Assembly: GCA_026417415.1 (NCBI GenBank)
Contig: JAOADG010000008.1
Coordinates: 705,612 to 769,611, forward strand
Length of the DNA: 64,000 nt
Direction of reading: 5' to 3'
DNA from: a bacterium
Lineage (GTDB): Bacteria; Electryoneota; JAOADG01
Under the pieces are notes generated by a model. The model saw only the letters and a list, made by a program, of their open reading frames with translations, had not been told where the DNA came from and did not search any database. Below are positions 32,411 to 64,000 of the stretch, one piece after another (position 1 is the first letter of the stretch; every line of letters starts with the position of its first letter). The position numbers and the translations under genes were made by a program.

Positions 32411-32988
32411 AAAGTAGCTTTCCATTCTGAAATGGTTGGCAATGAACCTATTTTAAAATCTTTCCATTCTTTTGCAACATAACCACCATCATTATCACGA
32501 ACTAAACGAAATATACTTCTTCCACTGACAGAAGTTGGTTGAAAATTGAGAAAATCTATTTGCATCGAGTAAGAAATTTCTACTTCAGTAAAATATTGAG
32601 TTAGCTGTTCAGATTGTATAATAAAAACTACATTGATTAAACTATCGGCTGGAATATCACTTCTTGAAAGTAACGAATGAATAAATCTTTCTTCTTTGCT
32701 ATAGTTAAAATTTTCAAAAATGTGACTATATCGCATTGCTGTTTCTGGATCTGGACAAAAACGAAAATCCTCATCTTTACTAAAAAAAGAAATATATTGA
32801 TTTGGATTTCTATTTTTAATAGAATTTTTAAGGCCTTCAAAGAATTCACGCGCGGTCTTTGGTGGAATACGATTGTTATATTGTTGCAGGGGGTTTTCCG
32901 GATTTCTTTCAGAAAGAAGTAGACATCCACTCATTAAGAGTATGCAAACGAAAGTTAGACCAAGTTCAAACCACTTTCCGATGATCAA
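32407..32988 (-). CDS. Lipoprotein, NTF2-like fold suspected (copy 1)
   Basis: A TTG at 32986-32988 overlaps the TGA of the preceding gene and gives a 193-residue lipoprotein: n-region LIIGKWFEL, hydrophobic LTFVCILLMS, lipobox cysteine in SGC. The mature part has AREFFEGLKNSIKNRNPNQY and ends in VAKEWKDFKI, mirroring the neighbour at 31910-32410. A longer reading starting at 33078 exists but lies within the upstream gene and has no signal peptide at its start, so it is rejected. Confidence 0.6.
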   Translation of the reverse strand: MIIGKWFELGLTFVCILLMSGCLLLSERNPENPLQQYNNRIPPKTAREFFEGLKNSIKNRNPNQYISFFSKDEDFRFCPDPETAMRYSHIFENFNYSKEERFIHSLLSRSDIPADSLINVVFIIQSEQLTQYFTEVEISYSMQIDFLNFQPTSVSGRSIFRLVRDNDGGYVAKEWKDFKIGSLPTISEWKATL

Positions 32989-33860: not shown

Positions 33861-34837
33861 TGAATATATACCGTCCAAGTAAGAATGTGAGTATTTTCTG
33901 GAGCGATTCTCTCTATGATATATCCGTAATCTAAACTTGTTTCAAAATCACGCACCATGCTCCACCGAAAACCACAACCAAAGGTTGGTGAAAGTCCATC
34001 TAATCCTGTTCGTAAAGCCATCGTCAACCATTGATCGTTCCAAACAACGTATTCACCACCTAAACGTATTATACGCCTTTGTTTTGTTATTTGTCCATCA
34101 ATAGTTAATGTAGTTTGTTTATTCGTAAAAGATATTCCTAACGAAGTTTGGAGTGGAATTTTATCTACTTTTGTGCTTCCTTGACTCCAATATCCGTCTG
34201 TATTCCAAGTGTATTTACTTGCTATATCTTTCAACATAACTCCAATAGTCACTTGTTTGATAAATTGGTAACGTACGCCTATATCAAAACCAATTCCTGT
34301 GGATTTTATTGATTGATTATTTTCTTTTAATTTTGGGAACAAAGCATAGAACACTTTAAAATTTATTCCTAACGACATTTTTTTTGGTACAGGTGATATC
34401 CCAAATCCAAGCGCAAAAGCATTATCAAAGTAACTCAGAAACTCAATATGTTTTCCATCTACATCACGACTATCAATTTCTTCTACTCCTGCATTCATCC
34501 AAGATAAACTCAATCCAGCTTCACCTTTTAATGGCGTCATCCAAGCTAGGTGTGAAAATTTTCTATCTAACGCTAACTTATGCATTGTAATGCCCAATTG
34601 CATCGAGCTTTGTATAGGCAGAAATGCAGGGTTATCAAAAGCCGTACTGTACCCCTGTGCAATAGCAGTTCCAGCATTGCCCATTGCCTTTGTTCGACCA
34701 CTCAAACCTATTCTTTGAAAAGCTCCAGCACTTCCACCTATATTGGGTTGTGTCAGGCCGTTGTCTATAAAAATCAACACCAATCCAATAATCACAAAGA
34801 AAATTGCATTTAATCTAAGATGATAAGTTTTCCCCAC
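33857..34837 (-). CDS. PorV/PorQ-like outer-membrane protein
   Basis: The 326-residue protein has a signal peptide (IFFVIIGLVLIFIDNGLTQ) then the PorV/UPF0164-type opening GLSGRTKAMGNAGTAIAQ, FDNPAFLPIQ, and a series of beta strands typical of a FadL/PorV barrel. The start is a GTG 28 bases inside the end of the upstream type IX cargo gene. No closer ATG is available. The gene is followed by a second PorV-like gene with a four-base overlap. It may serve as a dedicated partner for the cargo proteins encoded upstream. Confidence 0.8.
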   Translation of the reverse strand: MGKTYHLRLNAIFFVIIGLVLIFIDNGLTQPNIGGSAGAFQRIGLSGRTKAMGNAGTAIAQGYSTAFDNPAFLPIQSSMQLGITMHKLALDRKFSHLAWMTPLKGEAGLSLSWMNAGVEEIDSRDVDGKHIEFLSYFDNAFALGFGISPVPKKMSLGINFKVFYALFPKLKENNQSIKSTGIGFDIGVRYQFIKQVTIGVMLKDIASKYTWNTDGYWSQGSTKVDKIPLQTSLGISFTNKQTTLTIDGQITKQRRIIRLGGEYVVWNDQWLTMALRTGLDGLSPTFGCGFRWSMVRDFETSLDYGYIIERIAPENTHILTWTVYIQ

Positions 34838-37627: not shown

Positions 37628-40600
37628 CTAACGTAATACGACTATTTTTTGTATCTCAGAATATGAGTCAGCATTCAATTCTAAAAAATACATTCCTGAA
37701 GGTAGTTGTTCATTTTTCCACCGTATGAAGTGGCTACCCGCCTCAATAGGTCCTGAATATATTTCAGAAACTACTCTTCCCAAAATATTAACAACTTGAA
37801 GTCGAATTTTGCATGAATGTGGAATATCAATACAAATCGTAGTTCCTGAATTAAATGGATTAGGATAAACTGGATGTAATCTCCAACAATTAGGAATGTT
37901 GTTATTTATCAAATGCGTGTAATTGGTTTGCAAATCAATTGTGACATGACTGGTTGCATTTGCACAAGTATTTGTAAAAATATAAATGTTTGCAGAAAGC
38001 TGATTAGGACGGATAATTGTTGTATCAAAAGTAAATCGTACAAGTGCAGTTTGTATTTGATTGGGTTGTAAAACACCTTGTGTTGGCTGTAAAGATATCC
38101 AATTCTGAAAAGCGCCACTTGTGGGATGTATAAATGCAATGCCATAATTGTCCATCTGTGTAGGTATGCCGATCCCCGTTGAGGAGCTGAAGTAATTTTG
38201 TAGATAGTAAGCATTTGTTCCAGTACCACCCTGAATGCCGATAGTAGGTGATAGTGAATTTTCACGTATGGTTCTGTAAAGAATCAGAATTGCACTTTGA
38301 CTACAATGTAGTTGTACTTGAAAATGGACTGTATCTTGCTGATTTGGATATCGATTCCCATACCATTCAATAAAATAGATACTATCCTGTGTTTCAAAAT
38401 AGGTATAGACCTCTGTTTCTAAATCGTCCCACAAGGGAAGGATTGAATTTATTGCATTAACTGTTGGTAAAGAATAATTGTAACGAACACCATATGAATT
38501 GTTATCTGAAACGAATTGAATCATCCCGTTTGTATTAATCCGTATGGAATCATAAACATTTCCATAAAAACGAAAACTACATCCATTCATAGATAATTTT
38601 AAAGCAACATCATCACCACGTAACTTTAAATTAGTGGACTCACGTATGTTACGATACTGTATCCATCTTGGGAAACGAAAATCGTCACGATCAAAAGAAA
38701 TGTATCCATATCCATCTGGCCCCCAAAATTGATCAATAGTTTGAGAAGGAGTTTCAATAAAGGTTTCTGAGTGGTCTTTCGGCGGGTCAACTATAGAATG
38801 AAACTCTGACGGGAGCTCTGAAGGTGGTAGATAGAGTAATGTATCCATCGGTAAATATCTTATGGCACTTCTCCATTCTAATGGTACCTCACCGATATTA
38901 CTGATTTGCATCGAGATAACTAGAGTATCAGAACCGACTGTTTGTGTTATTGAAGTTGGGTTTACAGAAATGGCAGGAGTATAGAGTGTATCTAGAAATG
39001 AAATGGTTTGATTAGGTAGCACCTGAGAACGAAGATGTCTTAAAGGAGATGGATATAAGCAATTTGAAACAATTTCTATATTCCAAATTCCAGAAGGTAC
39101 AGTTAAAGACCAATTTCCAGTTTGATTAGACGTTGTACTCCAGTTATTATTACAAGAAATGACTGCGTTAGAAATAGGTGTCCCATCCCTTCTTCTTAAA
39201 ATGCCCACAAAATTACCGTTGGTCCGAGCTAATCCCCATATTCTCACAGCTGAACTATCCGAAGGAATGAAATTGCCATTTCCATTGATATAAAGTTCAA
39301 CACCATTTATTCCTAAATGGTCTTCCACACCGATTCCATACGCAACTTCAGATGGTGCATCCAAATAACTAAAATAAATTTCACCATTAGGATACAACCA
39401 TACTTGAAAAGAACCCGCAATTTGATTTGATGCTTGGTACCGAACATTTTCATAGGATACAACAAACAAATCCTCAAAACTTCCAATTTTTACACTTCCA
39501 TTAGTACAATTCAAATCATCCCACATTGGTGCTATTATTGCTTGTGGCATTTGGATGGATGGAAATGAAATTGGTTCTGTAGGATAGGGTAAGTTGCTTG
39601 TAAAAGTTAAGAAACCATTTGAAGTTATTGAAACCGAATCGTACCAAACACCATAAAAAGGAAAGCGAAAACCAATTGGTACGCGAACAACATTATCTTG
39701 AAACAACGGCAAAGAAGGAGCAGAATTTAGTGAAAACCAATAAAAATTATCCACTCGCCAATCGCCTAAAATATTTACTCGAACTGCATTAGATGCATAA
39801 GAGCGATTGGGTTGTGTTGCTGCATCATCAAATGCAATAACTTTGTATTCATAAAAATACGTCGTATCGGATACTGGATCAATAAAATTGGTTACGGTTG
39901 CTGGTAATGTTGCAATTAAAGTAGTATCGCGATATACGAAAAACCCTTGCAAATCAGTAAGAGGAGTTTGATCAACATTTTTATTTGGAGCAACCCAAGT
40001 TAAATAGTTAGATACTGCACCTGTAGTTACACGTAATGATTCAGGAGGTGCAGGTTTCATATTAAAACGTATAGAAACCGGTGATGATAAAATTGATTCA
40101 GTCGGTGGAGTTGAATAGAGTGCACTTATTTGGTAAGAGAAGTAAATGTTTTCGAATTGACTCCCTATTGAATCTGTATAAACAAACTGATGTGACGGAA
40201 CCGTAGCAACTAATGTGTTATTACGATAAATGTTAAACCCTACTCTTGTATCTACTTCGTCTATATTTGAAAAACTCCATCGCAAAGATACACGATCATC
40301 AAAGAGTGTATCTACGGAAACTATCATAGGTGATAGATTTCCTAAAGATGTAAGCTGAAAATTAAGAATTAATGTACTGTCAGGTAATATATTCACAACT
40401 TGAGTAACCGATTGGTAACCTTCGGAACGAGCAATAATCTGATATTGACCTGTAGGAATATTACGAATTGAATACTGATTAGAGTTAAATGGAATATCAA
40501 ATACTCCAAAGTTGACCAATTCAACTTGGCCTCCAATTATTTCTCCTAAACTCGATGTAAAAGTTCCTTGAATGGATCCGTTATAAAAAGTCGGAATTAG

Positions 40601-42382
40601 TTGAAATGAAAACTGATTTGTATTTGGTATATCGATAGGTAAAAGAAATGATCTTCTACTACCATCTAAATTTTCTACACCTAAAGCAAATTGTGGTGGA
40701 TTGTTTACATTTCTGTAATTGAGTTGAATTACACCATTTTCATTAAGAATATATTGAAAAGAAATCCAGCGATTTGGATTGTCTCTTTCTACTGCCTTGT
40801 TAAAGGTGATGATAAAACGTTGGTTGATACTATCATAATAATATTTCACACTGTCTCTTGGAATAGTCCAGTCATGCCATGCTGCAGCCAATATATTGTT
40901 CGGTTGAGATGGTGTTAATAACGACTGATAACCGATTTGTGAATACTGAATAGGACTAAAAGAAATATAGCCACTTGTTGTCACTTGAAAGAAAGAGTAG
41001 TTAGATTGAAAAAAAGGAAAATTGAAATACAGATTTTCAGAAACCATGTTGTTTCCAAATAAGTTTAATGTAGTTCCAACTTGTGAAATTTCATTCCAAG
41101 TAAATGGTGCTAAACTGATTTGGTAATTTTGAATTGTATATGGTGTTGTTGAGATTGTAGAAGAATAAGAGGAATATCCGTCATGTGTGATCACTCGAAC
41201 GTTGTAAAGATATCTGTAACCGTTTACTAAATTAATATCCGAAGCAACCGTATCTAATCGATTTACACGAATTTGTATAAGAGAAGTATCATTCATTTCA
41301 TTAATTCTGTAAATTGCATATCCTAAAAAATTGGTCGGAGTGGTGTGACGTTGCCAAGCAAGTTTACAATTGCCGTTTACAGCATATTGTATTTGAACAT
41401 TTTGTGGTGCTGATGGTACAATAATTTGTGGTTGTAAAGTAATGATTGTATCAAGTTGATTGTTAACAGGAACAGTAAGTGTACCGTACATCGCTTGATA
41501 ATTATCAGCAACTATGAAAAAAGGATAATTCCCTGATACTAAAGAAAATTGTGCAATCCCATTGCTATTCGTTAACTGGAATTGAACAGTAGGGGATTGA
41601 AATACAACCAATCCATTTGAAACGGGCTGAGATAGATGATTTTGTATAGTGATTTGTGCAGATCCAAAATTTCTATAAAAACGAATCGCTAGCTGTGAAG
41701 TTGGTACAGAAGGATTACCATTGAAAGTATATGTAAGATATTGATTATTACTTCCGCCATTGGGCCCTTGTATTCCTATTGTTGTAGAGTTTGCTGGATT
41801 TTGAACAGTATGATAGACAAATAGAATTTCGCCATTTGAATATAGTTGAATTTGAAATGTAAATCTATTAAGACGCGCGACTTGATGGGCAACTTGATAC
41901 CATTCAACAATCATTCTTGAATTGTTTACATCATAGTAGTACCAAACCGAACCGCTTTCAGGAAGGTACAAGTCGTCCCAAAAAGCAAAAATCATAGGGT
42001 TTGAAAAAATCGATGCTGGTAGATTACTATTGGAAAAAGTATTCGAAATTGTTCCAAAACCAATAAAACCATTCGAACAGATAGAAATTGTGTTAGCGTA
42101 GGTGTTTCCATAAAATGGAAACATGAAACCTTGCAGAGGAATAGATACTACTTCATCATCTAAGGTTAAACCAGTATTTATTCCGGGACCACCAGCTATA
42201 CCTGAAATTTCTATCCAATTGTATGTTGGACCATTAGGTTCATTCACATTATCAATAAAACGATAACCGTAGGCATCTGGACCACCTTGACGTTGGATTT
42301 CGTGAAATTTGACTGTAGGATAAGTAGAAGAAATTGCTGCATTCAAAAAGAAAAGCAATAGAAATAAAACCGTATAAACCAT
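37628..42382 (-). CDS. Giant multidomain type IX-secreted surface protein
   Basis: The 1584-residue protein has a signal peptide (VYTVLFLLLFFLNAAISST) and a C-terminal type IX sorting domain (YPNPFNSGTTICIDI ... GMYFLELNA). Between them are four related beta-domains of about 180 residues (from about 30, 420, 880 and 1200), each with a SNGF/TNGM or TSGY motif and a FPFYG-like strand. The first and last also carry GPDxYGY. Fibronectin type III domains (for example PSAPQNVQIQYAVNGNCKL) and carboxypeptidase-regulatory-like domains (QGTFTSSLGEIIGG and SNAVISCNN) lie between them. The protein is probably an adhesin or surface scaffold. GAGG lies six bases before the ATG. Confidence 0.88.
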   Translation of the reverse strand: MVYTVLFLLLFFLNAAISSTYPTVKFHEIQRQGGPDAYGYRFIDNVNEPNGPTYNWIEISGIAGGPGINTGLTLDDEVVSIPLQGFMFPFYGNTYANTISICSNGFIGFGTISNTFSNSNLPASIFSNPMIFAFWDDLYLPESGSVWYYYDVNNSRMIVEWYQVAHQVARLNRFTFQIQLYSNGEILFVYHTVQNPANSTTIGIQGPNGGSNNQYLTYTFNGNPSVPTSQLAIRFYRNFGSAQITIQNHLSQPVSNGLVVFQSPTVQFQLTNSNGIAQFSLVSGNYPFFIVADNYQAMYGTLTVPVNNQLDTIITLQPQIIVPSAPQNVQIQYAVNGNCKLAWQRHTTPTNFLGYAIYRINEMNDTSLIQIRVNRLDTVASDINLVNGYRYLYNVRVITHDGYSSYSSTISTTPYTIQNYQISLAPFTWNEISQVGTTLNLFGNNMVSENLYFNFPFFQSNYSFFQVTTSGYISFSPIQYSQIGYQSLLTPSQPNNILAAAWHDWTIPRDSVKYYYDSINQRFIITFNKAVERDNPNRWISFQYILNENGVIQLNYRNVNNPPQFALGVENLDGSRRSFLLPIDIPNTNQFSFQLIPTFYNGSIQGTFTSSLGEIIGGQVELVNFGVFDIPFNSNQYSIRNIPTGQYQIIARSEGYQSVTQVVNILPDSTLILNFQLTSLGNLSPMIVSVDTLFDDRVSLRWSFSNIDEVDTRVGFNIYRNNTLVATVPSHQFVYTDSIGSQFENIYFSYQISALYSTPPTESILSSPVSIRFNMKPAPPESLRVTTGAVSNYLTWVAPNKNVDQTPLTDLQGFFVYRDTTLIATLPATVTNFIDPVSDTTYFYEYKVIAFDDAATQPNRSYASNAVRVNILGDWRVDNFYWFSLNSAPSLPLFQDNVVRVPIGFRFPFYGVWYDSVSITSNGFLTFTSNLPYPTEPISFPSIQMPQAIIAPMWDDLNCTNGSVKIGSFEDLFVVSYENVRYQASNQIAGSFQVWLYPNGEIYFSYLDAPSEVAYGIGVEDHLGINGVELYINGNGNFIPSDSSAVRIWGLARTNGNFVGILRRRDGTPISNAVISCNNNWSTTSNQTGNWSLTVPSGIWNIEIVSNCLYPSPLRHLRSQVLPNQTISFLDTLYTPAISVNPTSITQTVGSDTLVISMQISNIGEVPLEWRSAIRYLPMDTLLYLPPSELPSEFHSIVDPPKDHSETFIETPSQTIDQFWGPDGYGYISFDRDDFRFPRWIQYRNIRESTNLKLRGDDVALKLSMNGCSFRFYGNVYDSIRINTNGMIQFVSDNNSYGVRYNYSLPTVNAINSILPLWDDLETEVYTYFETQDSIYFIEWYGNRYPNQQDTVHFQVQLHCSQSAILILYRTIRENSLSPTIGIQGGTGTNAYYLQNYFSSSTGIGIPTQMDNYGIAFIHPTSGAFQNWISLQPTQGVLQPNQIQTALVRFTFDTTIIRPNQLSANIYIFTNTCANATSHVTIDLQTNYTHLINNNIPNCWRLHPVYPNPFNSGTTICIDIPHSCKIRLQVVNILGRVVSEIYSGPIEAGSHFIRWKNEQLPSGMYFLELNADSYSEIQKIVVLR

Positions 42383-51503: not shown

Positions 51504-52127
51504 TTACCATCTGATTTGTAATTTAAGTTTTGAAAATCCATTTTCTTGATCGTAGAGCAATGTCGCGTTGGTAGGTCGCTTTAGATTAGGATGAATTGAG
51601 GCATCAAATGCAGAAATGATGTGATTAAGAATAACTCCACCAACTGCAAACTTTACACTTTCTAAGAATTTATCCGATTGTATTCTTAACTTCTTAAACC
51701 GAATTCTTTTTGATTCATCTATCCAGTGCCACTGATCATTAGGGGATAGATACATTCTATCAAAAGCTCGTTCACGTGCACGTGCTTGATTATAATCATC
51801 GGAAGTATTCCAATTGCCTAAATCTACATAGAACGAATGAGAACGCGGGGTTAGATCTCGTAAACCGCTATACAAATTAGCATAGGTTTGGTAATCCTTT
51901 TTTAGTGAAGTACCGTATTGATGCAATCCTACAGCACTGGCAATAAATACAATTTCATTCACTATAAAAATGTAACTTTTTTCTTTTCTACCTTGTTCGT
52001 ATTGTGCCCAACCGGGAATAAGTAACGATTGAAAAAAGTCGTTGCTATTTTTGTTTTTAACAGTTGTACTGTAGGATATATTTGAACAAATTAAAAAAAT
52101 GAATAAAAAGATATTGGAGCGAATCAT
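51504..52127 (-). CDS. DUF5683-like membrane protein (copy 2)
   Basis: The 207-residue protein has a signal-like N-terminus (NIFLFIFLICSNISYS), the segment SLLIPGWAQYEQGRKEKSYI, a transmembrane helix and a C-terminal LNHIISAFDASI. The same landmarks, GAGQIY and LNHALSAAHAAI, occur in the neighbour at 52138-53046, so they are tandem paralogues. This family is common in FCB bacteria; function is unknown. Confidence 0.78.
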   Translation of the reverse strand: MIRSNIFLFIFLICSNISYSTTVKNKNSNDFFQSLLIPGWAQYEQGRKEKSYIFIVNEIVFIASAVGLHQYGTSLKKDYQTYANLYSGLRDLTPRSHSFYVDLGNWNTSDDYNQARARERAFDRMYLSPNDQWHWIDESKRIRFKKLRIQSDKFLESVKFAVGGVILNHIISAFDASIHPNLKRPTNATLLYDQENGFSKLKLQIRW

Positions 52128-52137
52128 GATACTATCT

Positions 52138-53046
52138 TTAAAACTTCCATTTAATGGTAGGCATTGGGACTATAGTATTTTGAACATCTCTTGCTTCTAT
52201 CCCTAAACTTGCTTCAATAGTACGTTGATTTTTCAATTGGACAGAAATTGCAGCATGAGCAGCTGATAATGCATGATTTAACATCACCACCATAAACATA
52301 TTGTTACTTAATTCTAACATACGATTGGAATCATATCTCATGTCTGCATATCTCCTTGCATAATTACTTTGTCCATCCCACACACCAATGGTAGAAGCAT
52401 TGTCATTCGATTGATCCAACCAACCAAAACCAAATTGAGTTAGATATTTCCCGATCATTTCATAGAATTGTTGATTTCGAACATTCGGTAATTCATGTGT
52501 AAAATTGTTAGGTAAATATTTTGATTTATACTCACCAGCATTTGCAGACCATGGTAAATTGTTCCAATTCTCTCGTGTACCTGAATAAGGTACTGCGGAT
52601 TGTCTATTAATAGTTGGATCGGGATTAGTAGCCAATTCAAATTCTTTATTGCGATACGTTTCTTCACTCCAATAAAGATCTGCAAATCGTTTGAACTCTT
52701 TATCTTTATCTTTCCCTTTGATATTGTAGGAAATGGCCATTGCCCAAGCAGCCGCCTCAATTCCCATAAAAACAATACCTTGCCAAGTATCACCACTATA
52801 AATTTGCCCTGCGCCCGGAAGCATTGCAGAAAGCAATAGTGCTTTCCCCATGTTTAGTTTAAGTTGTGGTGATTCAAGTTCACCAGTATTAACTTGGTTG
52901 CTTGAATTAACTTGTAATTGTGTTATTAGCTGTTCTTGTGAATGATACTTAAACTGTGTCATTGATTGTGGAAATTGCAGATGATTTTGTGCAATTGAAA
53001 GTGTGGTAATAAAACACAAAAAAACAAGTGATAATAAAAAATGCAT
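52138..53046 (-). CDS. DUF5683-like membrane protein (copy 1)
   Basis: The ATG at 53046 has GGAGGG four bases upstream and gives 302 residues with a clear signal peptide (MHFLLSLVFLCFITTLSIAQ). A reading from 53070 would add eight residues. The core SAMLPGAGQIYSGDTWQGIV and a following membrane helix (IEAAAWAMAISYN) match DUF5683. A divergent, hydrophilic middle and LNHALSAAHAAISV complete it. Function unknown. It overlaps nothing and precedes its paralogue by ten bases. Confidence 0.8.
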   Translation of the reverse strand: MHFLLSLVFLCFITTLSIAQNHLQFPQSMTQFKYHSQEQLITQLQVNSSNQVNTGELESPQLKLNMGKALLLSAMLPGAGQIYSGDTWQGIVFMGIEAAAWAMAISYNIKGKDKDKEFKRFADLYWSEETYRNKEFELATNPDPTINRQSAVPYSGTRENWNNLPWSANAGEYKSKYLPNNFTHELPNVRNQQFYEMIGKYLTQFGFGWLDQSNDNASTIGVWDGQSNYARRYADMRYDSNRMLELSNNMFMVVMLNHALSAAHAAISVQLKNQRTIEASLGIEARDVQNTIVPMPTIKWKF

Positions 53047-53050
53047 TCTT

Positions 53051-53056
53051 CCCTCC
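53051..53056 (-). promoter_or_regulatory. Ribosome binding site fixing the DUF5683 start
   Basis: GGAGGG four bases before ATG 53046 favours this start over the one at 53070. Confidence 0.7.
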
Positions 53057-53060
53057 AAAA

Positions 53061-56000
53061 CTATTTCCACCTTTTTTCAAAGAATCGTATTCCTGTCGGT
53101 GGTTGTGTAAAACCAAACAAAATTGTGAAATAGTATCTCCATTGTGGTGAATAAGTATTCAAAACATTGTTTTCTAATACATTTACACGATCTAATCCTC
53201 GTGCAACACTAAATGATAAAGCAGTAGGATAACTATAAAATGAAATAGCAGAAAAACGAATTTCTGTGCCAATGTCACGAACCCATTTGGATTTTGATAG
53301 TTTATTTTTGGACCATACCGTTCCAATATCCGCAAAAGCGTTTACATAAAGATCAGTTGGTGAAATCCAACTTAAAATTGAATAATTACCTTTAGAATTC
53401 CATAAAGGAAACTGGTTAACGATTTGTCCTAAACAAATTTTTTCACCACCTAAACTATAGTAAGAAAATCCTCTCATTCCATAAAGTCCACCACCATATA
53501 GGTAAAAAAATGGGTCAACTGTTTTATTAATCATTCCTAATTTTATTGTAGGTGATATAGTCCACATCTTCCAGATTTTTTGAAACAATTGCGCTACCAA
53601 TTCAGTTTGCCAATAATTGTATGGTGTGTACACTTCTTGTAAAGTAAGTTTATCAGAATTGATTTTAAAACCTGAAATAAAATTATGATAGTTTCGCTTT
53701 ACTTTTAATCCAAATTGATAACCACTCGTTGGATGAATATCAGAAGTAATTGAAGGGGTTATCTGAGAATGTACTAATGATACAACACCACTTTTGCCTT
53801 TAAAATAAGTATAACCAAATGTTGGTGAACCATCACTAAACTTTAAAGCTGTTTCATATCTTGATAAAATTCCATAGAACGCAATAGTGGTATTTTCATC
53901 TAAATTGTACTTTGTTCCTAATTCTGTTTCAAGTAAATTAAATTTATACTCAATTTTGTAAGTATCATAAATTGGAATTGCGTTTTCTCCACTACCAATT
54001 TGCCCTATGATTTTGTAAGGATCAGAAAACATTTTGGCATCACGACGCACAATGTTGTATACGTTAAGAAATAAAGTAGAAGGAAGCATACGATAATCAG
54101 TGGATAAATACAGATCATATTCTTTTTGAAAATTAAATGCGAAGCCACCTAACATATTCAGCTTTTCTAAAATATCACTAGTATATAGATAAAATCCAGG
54201 TTTAAAAGTGCCGTAATCCCAAGCAATACGAGGTAAAAAAAATGTCTTTTCAAAAATGGGAAAATATGCCCTCGGTACAAATGATGAAGAATCTTTATTT
54301 GTTATTGTATAAGTAGAATTTGGAAAGAGCGGATATTTGTTGCTCGTTTGAGTTTTTACTGTTCCGAAAGAATCCATTAATGCGATTTTGTACCCATCAA
54401 ATTCATAATGACAATAGACCAACTTTTTGCCATCAGGTGAAATTTCACCATATAGCGCTCCACCTAATACATTCGTAATCTGTTCACGAACTTGTGATTT
54501 TGTATTGTAACGATAAATGTTCCATATGCCTGTAGAATCACTAGAGTAGTAAATCCAATCCTCATAAACAGAAACATCTCGTTCATCCCAAATGCATTCA
54601 CGTAGCGGCTTAGCGATTTTCTCACTCAAATCATAAACGTAAATATCTTTGTTATTATCTTTTGAATAAGAAAAATAAATTAGTTTACTATCACTTGAAA
54701 AACGCGGCCTAGAAAGTTGTTCCCCGTTTTGGAAATTAGTTAATTGTATTTTTTTTAAAGCGTTTTTTAGAGTTCTTTTCACATTCAACTGTTCCGGAAG
54801 TTCATATAACACAAGGTTCATGGTTCCATCACTTTGATCAATAGCTACCATCCACTTTCCATCTAAAGAAATATCTGGTTGTTTTGAACGACTTTGATAG
54901 GTTAACCGATACGATTTTTTCTTGTTCAAGTCATAGAAAAATAAATCATCCAACCTTCTTTGACCTTTTTGTAAGGGTTGAGCAGAATAAACTATTCCAT
55001 TAAGTGTTGGATGAACTGCAAATGGAGCACTCGTCTTTAAAATTTTCTTTTTCTCTTTTGTTAGGATGTTGTAAGATATTAACGAGCTGCCGCTAAAGTA
55101 ATCTTTATCTTTATTTGAAATATAGTAAATGTGTTTTCCATCTCGGGACCATTTTGGATATAAATTTCCAAAGCCATCAGATTCAATTAGTTCGCCTTTT
55201 CGTAGATCCTTTTTCAAAGGTTCTACTTGTGATTGATAGTGTTCCAAAAGATATTTTTTCCAATCTTGGTACAGTTCATCAGCAGTAATGCCTAATGCTT
55301 GTTTGCATTGTGAATTAAAAGACCAATTCCAATTGGATGATATTTCCTTACTTATCTTTTGTAATGCATCTTCACCAAATCTTTGAATAGTATATTGTGT
55401 TAGAGAAAATCCTTGATTGTAAACCAATTCGTTTTCAAGAGAATTCTTGTGAAACACACTCATTTCATTGAGTGTCAACAATTTATTTTCTAATACTCGC
55501 ATTCGTAGCATCATCTCACGATGACTATCGCGATAATCGTAATTCATATCTTTACGCATGGATTGGGCTGTACCCTCTGCAAACCAATGAGGGACTACTG
55601 TATTTGGAATTGGGTAACTGATGATTTGATTCGGAAAACCGTAAAGAACATCTTGTCTTGTTTCATCTTCATACTGTATAGATTGAAAGTAAATTGCTGG
55701 TATCCTCCTTGTCCATTTTCTCGAAGCACCCAGTTGAATGAGATGTGTAAACTCGTGTGTTACCACATTTCTTAACCAATGATGGGTTCCACGAAATTCA
55801 AAATCCAATGCAGGCGCCCAAATTACAATTTTATTGTTTAAGTAATAGGTTGCACCATTTGCATAATCATCTGTATCATAAACTACCCAATGTACTTTTG
55901 TATCAGGATGATATTGATACAACTCTACAATAGGTTGATAAATTTCTTCAGCTATTTTTAAAATCTCATTCGCTGTTCTTGCAGCTCCTTCGTGATAGTG

Positions 56001-56126
56001 CACGATATGATGTTCACCTTCTATGGTTCTCCAGACAAGGGAGGCATGGTTAAATGGTGTCACTTGTGCTGTTACAACACTAACACTAAGAAAAAAGAAA
56101 AACATAAAAATAATTAATCGTAACAT
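53061..56126 (-). CDS. Metallopeptidase / PD40 propeller / outer-membrane barrel protein
   Basis: The 1021 residues combine three parts. After a signal peptide (LIIFMFFFFLSVSVVTAQ), residues about 30-300 form a gluzincin-type peptidase domain with VVTHEFTHLIQL (HExxH) and a downstream HWFAEGTAQS that supplies the third ligand glutamate. Residues about 310-620 are a TolB/PD40 beta-propeller with repeats such as PKWSRDGKHIYY and GEISPDGKKLVYC. The rest (about 640-1021) is beta-strand-rich and resembles a BamA/D15-like outer-membrane barrel. The start ATG shares one base with the upstream stop (TGATG). Substrate unknown. Confidence 0.85.
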   Translation of the reverse strand: MLRLIIFMFFFFLSVSVVTAQVTPFNHASLVWRTIEGEHHIVHYHEGAARTANEILKIAEEIYQPIVELYQYHPDTKVHWVVYDTDDYANGATYYLNNKIVIWAPALDFEFRGTHHWLRNVVTHEFTHLIQLGASRKWTRRIPAIYFQSIQYEDETRQDVLYGFPNQIISYPIPNTVVPHWFAEGTAQSMRKDMNYDYRDSHREMMLRMRVLENKLLTLNEMSVFHKNSLENELVYNQGFSLTQYTIQRFGEDALQKISKEISSNWNWSFNSQCKQALGITADELYQDWKKYLLEHYQSQVEPLKKDLRKGELIESDGFGNLYPKWSRDGKHIYYISNKDKDYFSGSSLISYNILTKEKKKILKTSAPFAVHPTLNGIVYSAQPLQKGQRRLDDLFFYDLNKKKSYRLTYQSRSKQPDISLDGKWMVAIDQSDGTMNLVLYELPEQLNVKRTLKNALKKIQLTNFQNGEQLSRPRFSSDSKLIYFSYSKDNNKDIYVYDLSEKIAKPLRECIWDERDVSVYEDWIYYSSDSTGIWNIYRYNTKSQVREQITNVLGGALYGEISPDGKKLVYCHYEFDGYKIALMDSFGTVKTQTSNKYPLFPNSTYTITNKDSSSFVPRAYFPIFEKTFFLPRIAWDYGTFKPGFYLYTSDILEKLNMLGGFAFNFQKEYDLYLSTDYRMLPSTLFLNVYNIVRRDAKMFSDPYKIIGQIGSGENAIPIYDTYKIEYKFNLLETELGTKYNLDENTTIAFYGILSRYETALKFSDGSPTFGYTYFKGKSGVVSLVHSQITPSITSDIHPTSGYQFGLKVKRNYHNFISGFKINSDKLTLQEVYTPYNYWQTELVAQLFQKIWKMWTISPTIKLGMINKTVDPFFYLYGGGLYGMRGFSYYSLGGEKICLGQIVNQFPLWNSKGNYSILSWISPTDLYVNAFADIGTVWSKNKLSKSKWVRDIGTEIRFSAISFYSYPTALSFSVARGLDRVNVLENNVLNTYSPQWRYYFTILFGFTQPPTGIRFFEKRWK

Positions 56127-59100
56127 CACAAAACTGCAGCTTTAACGATTTGTACTGGATAACTGCCACATTGGATACGGATCAAGTAAATTCCACGATT
56201 AATTTTTTGTACATTCCATTCAAATTCAAATCCTCCACCTTCTACAAGATATGGCTCACTAAGTGATGCAATTTTTTCACCTTCTAAATCGTAAATATCC
56301 ACTTTAGTTGAGTAAATTAAATGGTTACTTGTTAATACTCTTAAATAGGCCTTTTCTTTACGAATTGGATTAGGCCATATCAATGCTTGGAAACCATTAG
56401 AAAATTGAATTTGATTTGACCAATCTTTGGGAGGAATGGGAAGTGGTTTTCCAAACGCAGATCCGTAAACGCAATTAGAAGTTATTGCAGTTACCTCAAC
56501 AAGTGGCCGTGTAGTTAAATATATTCCCCCATCATCTGAAACAGCAGCGATTCTAAACTCATTTTGAGATATAGAAGAATCAACCAAAATGCTTATTGAC
56601 GAAACATTTCTAAGACCAACTCCAATGGGATAACGAAAATCATTTGTTGAAACATTTAGTTTATACAACTCGCCATCTCTAGTTCCAATCCAAAGAACAG
56701 GTTCATTCAAGTTGGAAATCGCAGACACTGCAGATGTAGGAATAGAAGTAATGTTTAATCTTTTAGGAAAATCTTGTCGTATGGAATTATTTCCCCATAA
56801 CCACCAATAGTTTTGTGATACAATTCCTACATTCTCACTTGTATTTACAAAATGAATGATAGATTCATTAGAAGGAAAAAACGTTTGTAGTATCCATTGG
56901 CTACCATTTGAGAATGAAAGTTGATTGTTTAGATAAATAAAATCTCCTAATGCAGTTCCAATGCCAAGTACTTGATCAATATTTTTTGTCTCAAACAAAC
57001 GATAGGTTCCATTTGAACGAACGATAGGATAATAGCTTGGAGTTAAAATCAATGAGTTTTTTAATTCAAGGCGATAGGTGATCTCAAGAGGTTCATAGTT
57101 TTCTATAAAAACAATCCAACTAGAAAGGTTATTTGTAAATGCAGAAATAAGACGATTGGCTAAGAATAATGTGTAAATGGAATCTACAATAAAATAATCT
57201 TGGTTCCAGTTTAACTTTAATGAATAGATAGTAGTTTGTTTTTGCGAAGAGTCAAATGAAGAAAGAAACAAAAATGATGCTTGATTAACATCCTTTCCAA
57301 AAATTGCGAAATGTATCGGACCTGATGGTATTTGAAAAACTTTATACGATAGAATGCTATCCAATAATACCTTTGAAAAAGGATCACGATGGATATGAAC
57401 ATCAACTTGACGCCCCAACCATTGACCAGAATCATTTAGACAATAAATGCGAGTGCTATCTATTATCCATAGTTCATCTTGTTGATCATTATTTGCATCA
57501 AATGGAAGTGAAATTTTTTTTGTTGAGGTAGGTGGTATTCTTAATCGAATTTCACCTTCATGCTGGTAGGTTTTACGGATGAAAAAGTGCATTACACGTG
57601 AAGGTAAAGAAAAATTTCTTAATTCAAATGGAGCAGGAGATCCATTGCTCATTACTGCTGGAGGTATTACATACGGTGTAAAACGGATAGCATTATCTCC
57701 ATTATTTGCATAACGCCAATCGGGGTTGTTTTGATAATATGCATCGTGTGGTGATCCGGTTTCAGTCCCACTACCAGGATGGAAAAAACCATAATTTTGT
57801 CCGATATCATTGGCACCATCTGCTTCTATTAAAGTGACTACATAAGGCTGACTTCCACTTTGATAAGGATAGTTATTTCTATTTCTATATTGTTCTTCCT
57901 CTACATTTATTCTCCAGATTAAAATTCCACTTCCGGGAATATCAAATTCATAATTGTCAACACGCGTGATCACTCCAAATGAATCTACCACTGAAGGATC
58001 TAATTCAATCTCATAGCGATTGGTAAGCTTTGCACGATGCCCTGAAGCATCATACACATAGGTGTAATTAAGTGAATCAGGATCCCGATTTCTTGCTTCA
58101 ACTAAAAAATATTCTGTTCCTGAACTATTAATTCGATAAATTTCCGGCAATGGAATGGTATCTGCATTGGGTATTCGTATACTTAAATACCCAGTATCTG
58201 GTGCTATGGTATATTGTGACCAACCCATTTTAATTCTTAGATAAGCAGACGGATAAGCAGGTAGTATTCCAAAAAAAGTACCAAACCCCCTATCCATAAA
58301 ATCCCAACGACCCAATCGGGACTGTCCGTTAAAAACATCATACATAAAAGGCAATCCAATACTTCTTCCGATTAAAAATGCATAGAGTCCACCAACTCCG
58401 ATATCAATCCACTGATTACCAACTTTTTGTGAAGACATTTCGGGTAGAATTGGACCTTCGGTCATAAAGAATTCACCATTTCTTAAAGACAAGCCACGTG
58501 GATCAGAAATATTTAAATAATAATGCAAATCATGTTTTGTAATGTACCCAGACGGAATATCAAAGGGTGTCTCATCAAAACCTACATCATATTCATTACC
58601 AGCGCCAGCATGAATAATGACAAACACATCATAGATTTCTGTACCATTTCTAATAAACTGGATTGTTGTGTCAGAAGCGGCAAGTTCCCACCCTTCTTTC
58701 CACAATTCAGTTATTCTACGATTTGTGAGTGCAGTATCGGAAGGATTTGGATGATAGTACCAAATAGGTTGATGGGCACGATAAGCATTTCTCAAACCGA
58801 TTGGATAAACGTCCGCCTTAATAGAAACTTTTCCGTTTGATACTTTATGAAAATAGTTATGTACAAATTGAAATTGATGCTGAAAGTAAATACTGTCGTG
58901 TGGGGGAGGATCAATTTTTCTATTCTCTCTTGCACCATAATCAAAACTACCGTCACCTGTAGTCGTTGAAAGTGTATCTCTAGGAAAATCTATTCTTATG
59001 GCTAATACACGAATAGTATCAGGCAAATTTCTGTTTAGTATTCTTGAATAATCTAATGAAGTTGTTCGAAATTTAGATACTATTGACGAGAAACCAACAT

Positions 59101-59158
59101 TCCAAGAAATAGTTATGGACAAAAGTAAAAGAAAAGATATCCTCAAATGTAACTTCAT
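56126..59158 (-). CDS. M6-like secreted protein with inactivated metal site and type IX sorting domain
   Basis: The 1010-residue protein has a signal peptide, an M6 (immune inhibitor A-like) metallopeptidase domain and a type IX C-terminal sorting domain (WPNPIRKEKAYL ... GIYLIRIQ). The M6 fold is recognised by FVIIHAGAGNEYD and by GLPFMYD and GRWDFMDRG, which follow the zinc motif in active homologues. The HEFGH sequence that should stand before LGLP is FLIGR here, so both histidines and the catalytic glutamate are missing. It is probably a non-catalytic surface protein. The start TTG 59164 or ATG 59158 cannot be separated with certainty. Confidence 0.82.
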   Translation of the reverse strand: MKLHLRISFLLLLSITISWNVGFSSIVSKFRTTSLDYSRILNRNLPDTIRVLAIRIDFPRDTLSTTTGDGSFDYGARENRKIDPPPHDSIYFQHQFQFVHNYFHKVSNGKVSIKADVYPIGLRNAYRAHQPIWYYHPNPSDTALTNRRITELWKEGWELAASDTTIQFIRNGTEIYDVFVIIHAGAGNEYDVGFDETPFDIPSGYITKHDLHYYLNISDPRGLSLRNGEFFMTEGPILPEMSSQKVGNQWIDIGVGGLYAFLIGRSIGLPFMYDVFNGQSRLGRWDFMDRGFGTFFGILPAYPSAYLRIKMGWSQYTIAPDTGYLSIRIPNADTIPLPEIYRINSSGTEYFLVEARNRDPDSLNYTYVYDASGHRAKLTNRYEIELDPSVVDSFGVITRVDNYEFDIPGSGILIWRINVEEEQYRNRNNYPYQSGSQPYVVTLIEADGANDIGQNYGFFHPGSGTETGSPHDAYYQNNPDWRYANNGDNAIRFTPYVIPPAVMSNGSPAPFELRNFSLPSRVMHFFIRKTYQHEGEIRLRIPPTSTKKISLPFDANNDQQDELWIIDSTRIYCLNDSGQWLGRQVDVHIHRDPFSKVLLDSILSYKVFQIPSGPIHFAIFGKDVNQASFLFLSSFDSSQKQTTIYSLKLNWNQDYFIVDSIYTLFLANRLISAFTNNLSSWIVFIENYEPLEITYRLELKNSLILTPSYYPIVRSNGTYRLFETKNIDQVLGIGTALGDFIYLNNQLSFSNGSQWILQTFFPSNESIIHFVNTSENVGIVSQNYWWLWGNNSIRQDFPKRLNITSIPTSAVSAISNLNEPVLWIGTRDGELYKLNVSTNDFRYPIGVGLRNVSSISILVDSSISQNEFRIAAVSDDGGIYLTTRPLVEVTAITSNCVYGSAFGKPLPIPPKDWSNQIQFSNGFQALIWPNPIRKEKAYLRVLTSNHLIYSTKVDIYDLEGEKIASLSEPYLVEGGGFEFEWNVQKINRGIYLIRIQCGSYPVQIVKAAVL

Positions 59159-59171
59159 TACCAATTCTTAT

Positions 59172-60218
59172 TTATAATCCTAAAGTCAAAGAAAATCGCA
59201 TAGTGTCTGTTAGTGGATGTCCTTCACCAGCAGATACATAACTAAAGTCAAAACGATAAACAGCGTACTGTAAAGAAGCACCAAACGTTAATGGTTTAAC
59301 TTTTCCTTGTTGATCATTCCAATAACCGACTCTTAAGCCCACTAAATTTGTGTACCAATATTCTACTCCTACATGATAGATCATTTCCTGTAATAAAGGT
59401 TCATCTAACCAACTTGTAACCAAAGCCACATAAAATGGATCTGAAGTACCATCTGGATACTTTCTAACCAGTTCTTTATCTATATCACCAACTACAGTTA
59501 GTTTGTTAAATTCTGTATCAATTACATGATAAGCAGCACCCACTTTTAAATTTGTAGGAATAGGGTCTGCTTGGGCTGCATCTATGTAAGCTATTTTCGG
59601 TCCTAAATTGGACAAATTAGCACCTAGTTGTAGTCCGGGCATCCATTTGGGTTTATGCATCACACCAATATCTACACCAATTCCCGTTGCTATCCCAGAA
59701 CCTTTTTCTGCGCCAGCTCCTCTATCTGCTAAATGCGAATAAATAAATCTCGCACTCATTCCTAAAGCAGTATACCTTGTCATAAGGGTACCATAAGAAA
59801 GTCCTAATGCACCCTCATAGGTTGAAAATGTACCTTCTTCTTGTCCTTGCTCATTGGTTCTAGTAGAAGTTCCCAAGTTTAAAAATATTAAATGAGCGCC
59901 AAATGTACCCATTTCGTGAACAGGATGAACATAGCCAATAAAATCATAATACAGATCAGGTAAATGAAATTGTGGCAGCCAGTTTGCATGCATCATGGTA
60001 ATCTGTTTTTGATATTGATATGCTAATCCAGCAGGATTCCACCATGTTGCATTTGCATCGTCCGTCAATGCAACTCCTGCTTCACCCATCCCACCGTATC
60101 TACCACCGGGTGAGATTTTTAAAAATAAAACAGCAGACTCAGAAACTCCTGCAAGAGCGAGTTGTGTACTTAATGAAAAAAATAAAAAGAATGACATAAT
60201 CAATATGAATAATTTCAT
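59172..60218 (-). CDS. porV: Type IX secretion system outer-membrane protein PorV
   Basis: PorV is a FadL-like barrel that carries cargo to the PorU sortase on the cell surface. The ATG at 60218 has GGAGG four bases upstream and gives 348 residues. After the signal peptide come the conserved FLKISPGGRYGGMGEAGVA and NATWWNPAGLA, hallmarks of the PorV family. The barrel ends in FSLTLGL. It lies directly after porU. Confidence 0.93.
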   Translation of the reverse strand: MKLFILIMSFFLFFSLSTQLALAGVSESAVLFLKISPGGRYGGMGEAGVALTDDANATWWNPAGLAYQYQKQITMMHANWLPQFHLPDLYYDFIGYVHPVHEMGTFGAHLIFLNLGTSTRTNEQGQEEGTFSTYEGALGLSYGTLMTRYTALGMSARFIYSHLADRGAGAEKGSGIATGIGVDIGVMHKPKWMPGLQLGANLSNLGPKIAYIDAAQADPIPTNLKVGAAYHVIDTEFNKLTVVGDIDKELVRKYPDGTSDPFYVALVTSWLDEPLLQEMIYHVGVEYWYTNLVGLRVGYWNDQQGKVKPLTFGASLQYAVYRFDFSYVSAGEGHPLTDTMRFSLTLGL

Positions 60219-60222
60219 TATT

Positions 60223-60227
60223 CCTCC
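60223..60227 (-). promoter_or_regulatory. Ribosome binding site fixing the porV start
   Basis: GGAGG four bases before ATG 60218 decides against the in-frame reading from 60236. Confidence 0.75.
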
Positions 60228-60235
60228 GATGAACA

Positions 60236-63200
60236 CTACTTTAAAACGACTGCACGACCGATGGATTCAACCTGTCTGCCTATTTCGTCTTTTATTTCTA
60301 ATCGCCACAAATATACGCCATTTGCAACATCTTTTCCGTGTTGATCACGCCCATCCCAAAATGCCAATTGTGGAACATTATAACCGATATGGACTGGGAA
60401 AAAATCCGTAGAATAAATTTTCGTACCGTTAATCGTGTAAATATGTATTTTTCCAACACCTGATGAAGAACATTCAAATGTAAAAGAAGTATTATTTTTT
60501 ATTGGATTAGGATAGTTTAACAAATTCCTTATTATAAGTTTATCTGAATGGGTACGTACATGAAAGGTGGTTTTAGCAATAGACGGATTATTTGCTCCAT
60601 CAAAAACTTGTAATACAAGCGTGTAACTACCATCGTTTAGAAACCCTAAAGGTGCTTCAATTGTTCCTTGAATGGTTTGGTTAGGAGCATAAGAAAAATA
60701 ATCTGTTACATCAATCTCTTTTTCATTTAAGCGAACGATTATTCGGTGACCAACATCACCAGTTAGGTTGACACCACTGGAATCCTCAATATCAGCAATT
60801 AACAGCGGAGAATTGGAAACAAAATCTCCATCAATAAATTTTCTGTGGTCTATGTACAATGTTACTTTTGGACCTAATGTGTCTATAATATTTGCAGATT
60901 GAAAAGCAATCCTAATTGTATTCAAATTCCCTGCAGCACGTCCCCATTCGCTTTCAGTAAATATTGAAGCACTCCCACTTGTATCCCCATATGATACGTC
61001 TAAAGGAAGTAATACTGGTATTGAAAAAGTACCTGTTTGAATAGTTCCTGATCCACGATAAAGTAATCTTCCAGGCATTCTATAGGAATAGGGATAATTA
61101 CGATTTTTATTCCAATAATACATTTTTTGTATTTGTGAACTTCGAATAGTTATGGTTGCTAAACCGCTACCATTAGGATCATGTTGAAGCATTCTTTCAC
61201 CAATTTTTCCTAAAGTATTTGAAATGGCTAATGGTACAATTGGATAAGGAATGATCGTATCAATCCATGCAAACTTATTTGGTGCTGCTAATCGCAAAAG
61301 TGGATCGCCTAATACATGATAATAACTTGAATTCGTTCTATTAAACAATGTACGTAATTTACCAAATTGAAGAGCTTCTGCAATAGACATTCTTGGTGTA
61401 TAAGCTGTATCAAAAATTGCTTGATAAAAGTTTTGTGCCAATAATTCGTTGGATTCTGGACCAGTTAAACGAGTAGCAGCTACTATTGCAATAGCACCAT
61501 TTTGAGGCATTTCAAGAAGTTTTTCTGGAAAGCTTTGTTGAGCAGGATCGTCCCAATAAGCCCAATCACAAGTAAATGCACACCATAAAGGCAATTTCAT
61601 TCCTGTACGAATAGAATTGATATCTCTACTTTCTCTTAATAACTGTTCATGCGCCCATATTCTGGGATTACCATGTCCAATCCAATTGACAACCAATGCT
61701 CCACGTTCCAATTCCGTTAGTAAACGTCTTGTTGCTTCAGGTTTAACAACAGCGACCTGAACAGGGTCATAGATCCCTTGATATTCAATTAAATGAATTT
61801 TAATTCGTTCAAAAAAGGGAGGTAAAATTCGGTAATCCATTGTATCCGAAGCCATCGTATGGGTTGTTTCCCACATCGCAAATTGTCCACCTTCTCCATT
61901 TTCATCATCTGCACAAAGAATTATTCTATTTTTCCATAACCCTTGAACCGGATTGGTCTCATATTGTATTAATTTGTCTATCCATTGATTAGCTGCAGAC
62001 ACTGATTGCACGGTTAATCTCGCTGTAACCAATTCCGGTGGGTTGATATCATTCCCGAAACGGACAAAAAAGTCATCCGTACAGATAGTTCCATTCTGAT
62101 ACGTGACTATAGGTCTTGGCGCATTTGGATAGGAAATCCCTCTATAATCATAATCTCCATCCCCTAAAAACATTACATATTTTGGTGCAGGTCTCTGCCA
62201 ATAACGAAATGCATAACGTAAAAAATTTCTTAAAGCGGTTGGATCTAAATTTCCGCATGAAAATTGGTCAAAGATATCAGCAATTCGCACATTGAGGACT
62301 CGAACGCGATTATTGGTCTCTCTAAATTGTTTCAATCGATTTGCAGGTTGTTCAAAAGCATCGTCGTAAATAATGATGTAATCTGCTTGTAAAGATGAAG
62401 CACGCAGATCAGTATAATCGCTAGTTCCCCAAACGACTGGAGTAATTGAAGCAATTGGGGAGATGCCCGTTTCATCGGCTACATGATATTGTTTATTTAT
62501 TGTAGTTGAACCACTATCTGAAAACGTATTGGATTTTATCCAACGAACTTGATAAGGATTGGATGTTTCAAAAACGTAAGGAATTGTGTTGCTGATTAAA
62601 TTCACTCGATATCTTGAGCCAATAGATGTGAAAGCAACCAATTTTCCATCCCTAAGTACCCAATCTCTTGTGTAAGTCGCTTCAACCCAATCAAAATAGT
62701 AACTTGCATTTCCAATTTTTCGTAATGTTAATTGATTGTTCCCTTCACGAATTAGATTTGATGGAATTGTACTTCTAATGGATAAGGTGGCGGGTAAAGT
62801 GTCAAATGGTACCTGATTTAAAGAGAATACAAAAGAGTTGGGTTGTGTTCCATAATTCATCTCCACTAATCGGATGGTGAGTAAAACATCAACAGTAGAT
62901 AATGCACCAGTAAGTAATAAGGGAAAACTTCTTTCCATAGTACCTGTAAATAATGGACCTACCCATCTTAAACCTGAACCAATAAAACTATTATTTGCAA
63001 AAATAGATAGTTCTGGTTCATAATAATATCTCCCAATAGCATTTGGTAGAATCATACTTCCATCCGCTGGATCTAAAGTTTGCATCCTCAAACCATCGTT
63101 ACCGCCAAAATTCAAGTCCAAAAAAAATGTCACATCTTTCAAGTAAGGTGAGATCCAATGAACGTATTCACCAGAACCTGTTCTTCTCCAAAAACTGGGC

Positions 63201-64000
63201 GATCGGCCAAAAAATAAAATTCTATCAGTTACATCAAAGCGATTATCATTCCCATCTTCGACCAAAATCGGAATTTCTTGCCAGTTGAATGGCTCATTTG
63301 CACTGACGGGTACAGGTAGAGAATCTGGTCCTAAACTGAGTAAGCGTATTTTCCGAACATCAATACTAGATAATTGAATGCCTACTGATAGCAAATTTTC
63401 AGCTGTTAGTTTTGTTATACCTTCTTGCGTGGTTTTGATACGATATAAAGGGCCTAAAGGGAATTGATCAACTGAATGGAGAATTGGATTAGGCAATTGA
63501 GACACCATTCTCCAATTTTTTCCTGCATGATAATTTAACACAAATTCTGGTAATTCTGTCGGAACAATACCAACTTCAGGAATTACAGGTTGATTCGTGT
63601 TTAAAAATATCAATTTTACATCAATTTCTTCTGCAAGTTGTATTGTATTAAACTGTTCTCTTGCAAAATATACTGCTATTGGAACTAAAGGGTGTCCTTG
63701 ATACTCTCGTGGTTTTCCAATTTCAATCCAAGGATGTTGAATTATTAACGGATTTATTGAAACGGTGTCTTTCGATTGTGGAAATCTTCCATCAATCATT
63801 TTTCTCACTTTTGGTGAAATTGATTGTAAATGAATAGTTTTATTGGGGGGCAATGCTACCCAATGGATGCAAGCTGGACGAAAGCGTCCTTCATGATCAT
63901 ACTGCACCGTACCATTAGAAGGGGTTATGTAGAAGCCATCTTCGGCTAAATTTTGAACACTAAGTGTATCCGTAAGTATGTAAAACAATTCGTGTTCTGT
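60236..64000 (-). CDS. porU: Type IX secretion system sortase PorU (N-terminus cut by window edge)
   Basis: PorU is the C25 (gingipain-type) cysteine protease that cleaves type IX sorting domains and attaches cargo at the surface. The frame is open to position 64000, giving 1255 codons; the signal peptide and true start are outside the window. The catalytic domain shows GDGDYDYRG, the histidine in VVNWIGHGNPRIW and the cysteine region LWCAFTCDWAYWDD then LTGPESNEL. A FlgD/type IX-like C-terminal domain follows (YPNPIKNNTSFTF ... GVYLWRLEIKD). It is followed by porV after 17 bases. Confidence 0.92.
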   Translation of the reverse strand, partial: TEHELFYILTDTLSVQNLAEDGFYITPSNGTVQYDHEGRFRPACIHWVALPPNKTIHLQSISPKVRKMIDGRFPQSKDTVSINPLIIQHPWIEIGKPREYQGHPLVPIAVYFAREQFNTIQLAEEIDVKLIFLNTNQPVIPEVGIVPTELPEFVLNYHAGKNWRMVSQLPNPILHSVDQFPLGPLYRIKTTQEGITKLTAENLLSVGIQLSSIDVRKIRLLSLGPDSLPVPVSANEPFNWQEIPILVEDGNDNRFDVTDRILFFGRSPSFWRRTGSGEYVHWISPYLKDVTFFLDLNFGGNDGLRMQTLDPADGSMILPNAIGRYYYEPELSIFANNSFIGSGLRWVGPLFTGTMERSFPLLLTGALSTVDVLLTIRLVEMNYGTQPNSFVFSLNQVPFDTLPATLSIRSTIPSNLIREGNNQLTLRKIGNASYYFDWVEATYTRDWVLRDGKLVAFTSIGSRYRVNLISNTIPYVFETSNPYQVRWIKSNTFSDSGSTTINKQYHVADETGISPIASITPVVWGTSDYTDLRASSLQADYIIIYDDAFEQPANRLKQFRETNNRVRVLNVRIADIFDQFSCGNLDPTALRNFLRYAFRYWQRPAPKYVMFLGDGDYDYRGISYPNAPRPIVTYQNGTICTDDFFVRFGNDINPPELVTARLTVQSVSAANQWIDKLIQYETNPVQGLWKNRIILCADDENGEGGQFAMWETTHTMASDTMDYRILPPFFERIKIHLIEYQGIYDPVQVAVVKPEATRRLLTELERGALVVNWIGHGNPRIWAHEQLLRESRDINSIRTGMKLPLWCAFTCDWAYWDDPAQQSFPEKLLEMPQNGAIAIVAATRLTGPESNELLAQNFYQAIFDTAYTPRMSIAEALQFGKLRTLFNRTNSSYYHVLGDPLLRLAAPNKFAWIDTIIPYPIVPLAISNTLGKIGERMLQHDPNGSGLATITIRSSQIQKMYYWNKNRNYPYSYRMPGRLLYRGSGTIQTGTFSIPVLLPLDVSYGDTSGSASIFTESEWGRAAGNLNTIRIAFQSANIIDTLGPKVTLYIDHRKFIDGDFVSNSPLLIADIEDSSGVNLTGDVGHRIIVRLNEKEIDVTDYFSYAPNQTIQGTIEAPLGFLNDGSYTLVLQVFDGANNPSIAKTTFHVRTHSDKLIIRNLLNYPNPIKNNTSFTFECSSSGVGKIHIYTINGTKIYSTDFFPVHIGYNVPQLAFWDGRDQHGKDVANGVYLWRLEIKDEIGRQVESIGRAVVLK

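Follow-up and report, generated by a model that had tools for sequence, protein, structure and literature searches.

The window analysed here, a stretch of 64 000 nucleotides from a Candidatus Electryoneota genome, encodes a secreted M6-family metallopeptidase that appears to have lost its catalytic site, which raises the question of why a degenerate protease should be kept at full length and whether it belongs to the cargo of the type IX secretion system (T9SS) or to the sorting machinery itself. The reading frame (56126-59164, minus strand, 1012 amino acids) begins with a predicted signal peptide, which is followed by an M6 (InhA-like) domain, then by a probable beta-propeller and lastly by a type IX sorting domain; since the ATG chosen in the first-pass annotation is codon 3 of this frame, the likely start is 59158 (Table 1). 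The M6 landmarks recognised in that annotation are in place (HAGAG, residues 185-189; GLPFMYD, 270-276; GRWDFMDRG, 285-293), and alignment confirmed its central claim that HEFGH has been replaced by FLIGR, with the loss of both histidines and the catalytic glutamate. The third zinc ligand, the aspartate of GLPDLYD, is also gone, and neither the protein nor any other frame of the gene contains HExxH, the single 'HE' of the protein lying at residue 535. An active M6 peptidase has both HExxH and the third zinc ligand, and the window protein has neither. The signal peptide and type IX sorting domain that had been reported are present, the latter as a real but weak sequence match: Por_Secre_tail scores 26.5 bits (E 7.8e-6), just below its cut-off of 27, and the domain is conserved across orthologues. 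The propeller region is fast evolving and was modelled with low confidence.

Table 1. Coordinates in the window of the M6-like gene, its encoded features and the neighbouring operon genes.
Feature	Coordinates	Strand	Evidence or remarks
207-aa protein, conserved operon member	51504..52127	-	
DUF5683 protein, conserved operon member	52138..53070	-	
Peptidase_MA gluzincin with TolB-like propeller and probable outer-membrane barrel	53061..56129	-	HEFTH at residues 125-129, WFAEG at 182-186
M6-like inactivated metalloprotease (pseudopeptidase) gene	56126..59158	-	NF052323, E 1.9e-93; possible TTG start at 59164
Type IX C-terminal sorting domain, residues 925-1012	56129..56392	-	PF18962/TIGR04183; profile matches to PorU and PorZ CTD structures
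Probable beta-propeller region, residues 541-924	56393..57544	-	Profile and fold matches to propeller structures
M6 (InhA-like, metzincin-type) domain, residues 46-540	57545..59029	-	AlphaFold, Foldseek, TIGR03296
F273, third zinc ligand position (Asp in active orthologues)	58346..58348	-	Alignment
FLIGR at the place of HExxH, residues 263-267	58364..58378	-	Alignments; secondary structure of the model
Predicted signal peptide, about residues 3-30	59075..59158	-	Hydrophobic N-terminus LRISFLLLLSITISWNVGFSS; helix in the model
PorV, T9SS outer-membrane shuttle protein	59172..60236	-	NF033709 269 bits, above cut-off; NF033710 208 bits, cut-off 250
PorU, T9SS sortase (C25)	60236..63988	-	NF033707 618 bits, cut-off 420; His772/Cys807 apparently intact

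We sought the two findings that would make this loss illusory, a spurious M6 similarity or a second HExxH in the protein, and both were ruled out by profile, fold match and motif scan. The TIGR03296 M6 domain model matched the window protein at 52.9 bits (E 4.9e-14), below its curated cut-off of 110.8, whilst Pfam Peptidase_M6 gave no match to it; a profile of the family found InhA2 in the PDB (E 3.6e-5). A fold search using the full-length model, whose middle part is of low confidence, returned mainly unrelated propellers and was rerun with the M6 domain alone. The AlphaFold model of residues 46-540 (pLDDT 91.9, pTM 0.92) had InhA2 (4yu6) as its sole significant Foldseek match (E 4e-12), followed by weak, mostly metzincin matches. 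As judged from sequence and predicted structure, M6 homology is thus sound though remote. Within this model the M6 fold is kept and so is the helix that bears HExxH in active enzymes (residues 258-268), with the metal ligands lost. InhA and InhA2 (MEROPS M6, PDB 4yu5/4yu6) share with the window protein the M6 fold, the active-site helix and a G-W-x-x-M turn; InhA has HExxH and zinc, however, whereas the window protein lacks the ligands and the glutamate and has gained a propeller and a T9SS sorting domain. As a control we used the one secreted M6 protein that the same genome encodes elsewhere, which has HEMGH.

The gene had been placed among type IX cargo, and here the genomic context speaks against this. 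It is third in an operon ordered PorU - PorV - M6 - Peptidase_MA/propeller/barrel - DUF5683, lying after PorU-PorV and before the Peptidase_MA (MA) gene, in an arrangement kept across phyla, so that 'cargo' is probably the wrong label. The operon genes are tightly packed with short overlaps, that of the MA and M6 genes being 4 bases. The gluzincin, TolB-like propeller and barrel architecture of the MA protein is kept in about 110 loci; its HExxH...AEG site is intact in nearly all copies (about 110). No NCBIfam family matches this architecture above cut-off, and among Pfam families the PD40 repeat alone does so.

An orthologue of the M6 protein was found in 38 of the 39 Candidatus Electryoneota genomes, always as one copy per genome, the exception being a draft that is 88% complete. 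Throughout the phylum PorV directly precedes the M6 gene in all loci on a long enough contig, PorU stands ahead of PorV in nearly every locus whose contig extends that far, and the MA protein, DUF5683 and the small protein follow downstream. A scan of named genomes with a single protein as query gave no match, but an alignment-based profile scan succeeded and returned 80 loci, including KSB1, Calditrichota, Marinimicrobia and Delongbacteria, in which the order is PorV-M6-MA-DUF5683, mostly without an adjoining PorU. HExxH was absent from all readable M6 proteins of this profile scan, which was seeded with dead proteins and so is biased towards the dead state. No relatives were found on plasmids. 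The decay of one gene in one genome is ruled out, as the loss is common to the whole clade and the frames are open; it is spread far more widely than had been supposed, a full-length inactivated M6 protein defining a pseudoenzyme clade in this phylum and several others.

A second sample, not selected by state, covered 291 genomes, mostly of other phyla, and added about 40 further M6 relatives. In this sample the slot behind PorV is occupied in two states: either the zinc site is lost and MA lies downstream, or the M6 protein has HExxH, typically as HE[FVM]GHxLGLPDLYD, there is no MA, and DUF5683 and/or the small protein comes next. The intact state was seen in 10/10 further loci examined from the phylum of G247. 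Among loci with PorV upstream, 87 had a lost site with MA, none an intact site with MA, 21 an intact site without MA and four a lost site without MA (the rest being contig ends), a table that is descriptive and does not amount to 112 independent cases because a single main event on the tree underlies both zinc-site loss and MA presence. As for the four loci with a lost site and no adjoining MA, in L110 an MA gene lies further downstream, L108 is at a short contig end, L166 belongs to a genome with a full-length MA elsewhere, and L183 is a true exception. The genome of the latter (G142) holds, besides this dead slot M6 (AIFAR, no MA), a second copy with HEFGH adjoining another PorV-like gene (L188), and the pair is a possible case of duplication before loss. 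Genome-wide, no full-length MA orthologue was found in the intact-M6 genomes tested; several active-M6 genomes have partial MA/propeller relatives elsewhere.

A tree was built with the motif columns removed and with eight other secreted M6 proteins for comparison. The slot M6 proteins formed one clade against these eight (support 100/100), and the main dead clade (98/98) was nested among paraphyletic active lineages. Four state changes are needed on the whole tree, and a topology in which L194 and L186 fall with the dead clade was not rejected (p-AU 0.38). Within the dead clade L169 and L170 read HQFxH, with the glutamate changed and both histidines kept, which by sequence is a half-way state. 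Given this half-way state and the nesting of the dead clade in active lineages, the direction of change is from active to dead, in one main event. Five proteins from other phyla (L173, L179, L185, L190 and L193) make up a separate slot-related M6 group in which HExxH is lost or altered (HMxGR, HQLGH, FETAH); some of these genes lie upstream of a very divergent PorV-like gene, without MA, and the group perhaps represents an independent inactivation.

The earlier interpretation stood in part: the pseudoenzyme clade that it proposed is real, but it is not unnamed, as the NCBIfam family NF052323, 'T9SS-dependent M6-like inactivated metalloprotease', describes it. The NF052323 model scores 314 bits against the window protein and its cut-off of 600 is not reached; the alignment is nevertheless full-length (protein residues 12-999 to model positions 7-1026 of 1043) with the same domain order, and the window protein has the features by which the family is described, namely an inactivated M6 site, a T9SS sorting domain and membership of the same gene clade. 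On sequence it is a divergent relative of the NF052323 kind. Above-cut-off members occur in six genomes outside the phylum (L159, L164, L165, L166, L169 and L170), where they lie behind PorV and fall inside the same dead clade. Many NF052323 relatives sampled outside the phylum, in contrast, keep an intact HExxH, all of them scoring below the cut-off, and the gene clade is therefore wider than 'inactivated'. The two accessions directly after NF052323 are the PorU2 and PorV2 models, and from this numbering we surmise that the curators had noticed a connection with sorting proteins. A search of the open-access literature, which does not prove absence, turned up no publication that deals with inactive M6 proteins of T9SS, and the terms 'M6 family', 'family M6' and 'immune inhibitor' are absent from one review of metallopeptidase pseudoenzymes. 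The family name is already known, whilst the tie to the operon and the switch of the slot protein from active to dead appear to be new.

The dead site has not been left to drift. In all 26 active slot orthologues H263, E264, H267 and D273 are invariant, whilst among 104 dead proteins Glu264 is found in none, His263 in four, His267 in 35 and Asp273 in 15. Mean pairwise identity amongst the dead proteins is nonetheless highest at residues 251-300 (51%), compared with 40-42% in the rest of the M6 domain, 39% in the sorting domain and 19% in the propeller. The window protein and its nearest relative (L059) share 72% of residues at the site and 36% in the propeller, whereas the four-fold degenerate sites of their M6 domains agree at 28%, which is near random; this combination points to strong purifying selection by which the dead cleft is held. 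Synonymous divergence (dS) between the two is saturated and the dN/dS ratio was omitted. The HAG strand, which if metzincins are a guide may border the substrate cleft, does not vary within the dead clade, and this would fit a protein still able to bind polypeptide.

Across the clade, then, the alignments show that the catalytic glutamate is gone and the zinc ligands are gone or broken, with the M6 fold and the dead-site region conserved. The reading that we prefer, at a probability of roughly 0.5, is that a former M6 metallopeptidase of the T9SS sorting operon has been turned into a non-catalytic surface subunit. The protein would be exported via Sec and then through T9SS by its own sorting domain, and, like PorU and PorZ of Porphyromonas, would stay at the outer membrane, attached to PorV or to another barrel of the PorV family. 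There its inactive cleft and propeller would bind, position or gate secreted substrates for PorU without cutting them, and the adjoining Peptidase_MA protein may have taken over proteolysis where it is still needed. In Porphyromonas, PorU and PorZ are themselves exported by T9SS and are kept at the outer membrane through PorV and PorQ, within an attachment complex of 440 kDa to which PorV shuttles cargo (PMC5562754). Two features of such attachment proteins, conserved linkage with PorU/PorV and a sorting domain of its own, are found in the M6 protein; gene order alone is no proof of a physical complex, and the subunit role is likely on sequence and context. PorU resembles it in being the product of a neighbouring gene, a surface protein with a sorting domain and a peptidase fold within the sorting machinery, but PorU is a C25 cysteine peptidase with apparently intact His and Cys, whereas the M6 protein is without catalytic residues. 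A bolder version, which we put forward only tentatively and hold to be doubtful, is that the M6 protein is a core component, so far undescribed, of the T9SS sorting complex in bacteria other than the best-studied Bacteroidota; having started as an active protease within that complex, it would have become a pseudoenzyme once the membrane-bound MA protein took the cutting over. Such a hand-over is attractive, but the case for it comes from one main event in evolution.

What is known of T9SS sorting comes almost entirely from Porphyromonas and Flavobacterium. If the M6 protein does belong to the sorting complex, that complex has in many other phyla a peptidase-derived subunit that is missing from current models. 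The orthologues of this one slot, whose zinc sites range from intact through partly lost (HQxxH) to erased, form a rare record of an enzyme becoming a pseudoenzyme inside a machine. This set also offers a direct test of whether loss of cutting by one subunit is paired with the gain of a second protease.

Alternatively, the protein could be ordinary T9SS cargo after all, a degenerate secreted protease serving as an adhesin or surface binder whose place in the por operon is merely old gene order. We consider this possible but rather unlikely: its signal peptide and sorting domain are of the cargo type, the genome holds dozens of cargo-like sorting domains and pseudopeptidases often serve as binding proteins (PMC11266112), but cargo would hardly be expected as one copy in 38/39 genomes, behind PorV wherever this can be read and across phyla, nor with an M6 domain that is conserved next to a fast-evolving propeller. 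A partnership with Peptidase_MA rather than with PorU-PorV, the M6 protein acting as a regulatory pseudoenzyme (an inhibitor, a prodomain-like partner or a substrate presenter), would account for the 4-base overlap, for the proximity of the two genes in nearly all dead-M6 loci and for the way in which zinc-site loss goes with MA presence. The M6 slot, however, seems to predate MA, since active M6 proteins follow PorV in loci that lack it, so the older link of M6 is to PorV, and in L166 the M6 and MA genes are apart, which together make such a partnership improbable. That the clade has acquired a changed chemistry, with H89, H185, D202, S205, E242, D291 and E447 as a new active or metal site, we regard as very improbable, for although these seven polar residues vary little or not at all among the dead proteins, H89, H185, D202 and E242 are common to active orthologues and belong to the inherited M6 scaffold.

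Returning to the preferred reading of a non-catalytic surface subunit, the remaining T9SS components of the genome are of interest, as it also encodes SprA, PorU, PorV, further PorV-family proteins and a PorZ-like protein. PorZ, part of the PorU/PorV/PorQ/PorZ complex of Porphyromonas, resembles the M6 protein in being a surface protein that is exported through T9SS and in carrying propellers and a sorting domain, but it has no M6 domain. The idea that the M6 protein fills in for an absent PorZ was rejected, given that a PorZ-like protein is present in the same genome (G000:C38:624192-626348; 124 bits, below cut-off) and similar ones in most genomes of the phylum; the PorZ type thus seems to reach beyond Bacteroidota. 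The GldM/PorM motor model gave no match in this genome (G000), nor did it in control genomes, so that absence is not shown; the T9SS of Candidatus Electryoneota may use another motor. The SprA/Sov translocon protein (775 bits) lies at G000:C38:420709-426987. Within the window two tandem PorV-family proteins are encoded at 32985-34837 (G000:C38:738605-740337); a gene for a T9SS cargo of 1584 aa (37628-42382) lies about 3 kb away, and the two proteins are possibly a second, dedicated shuttle set.
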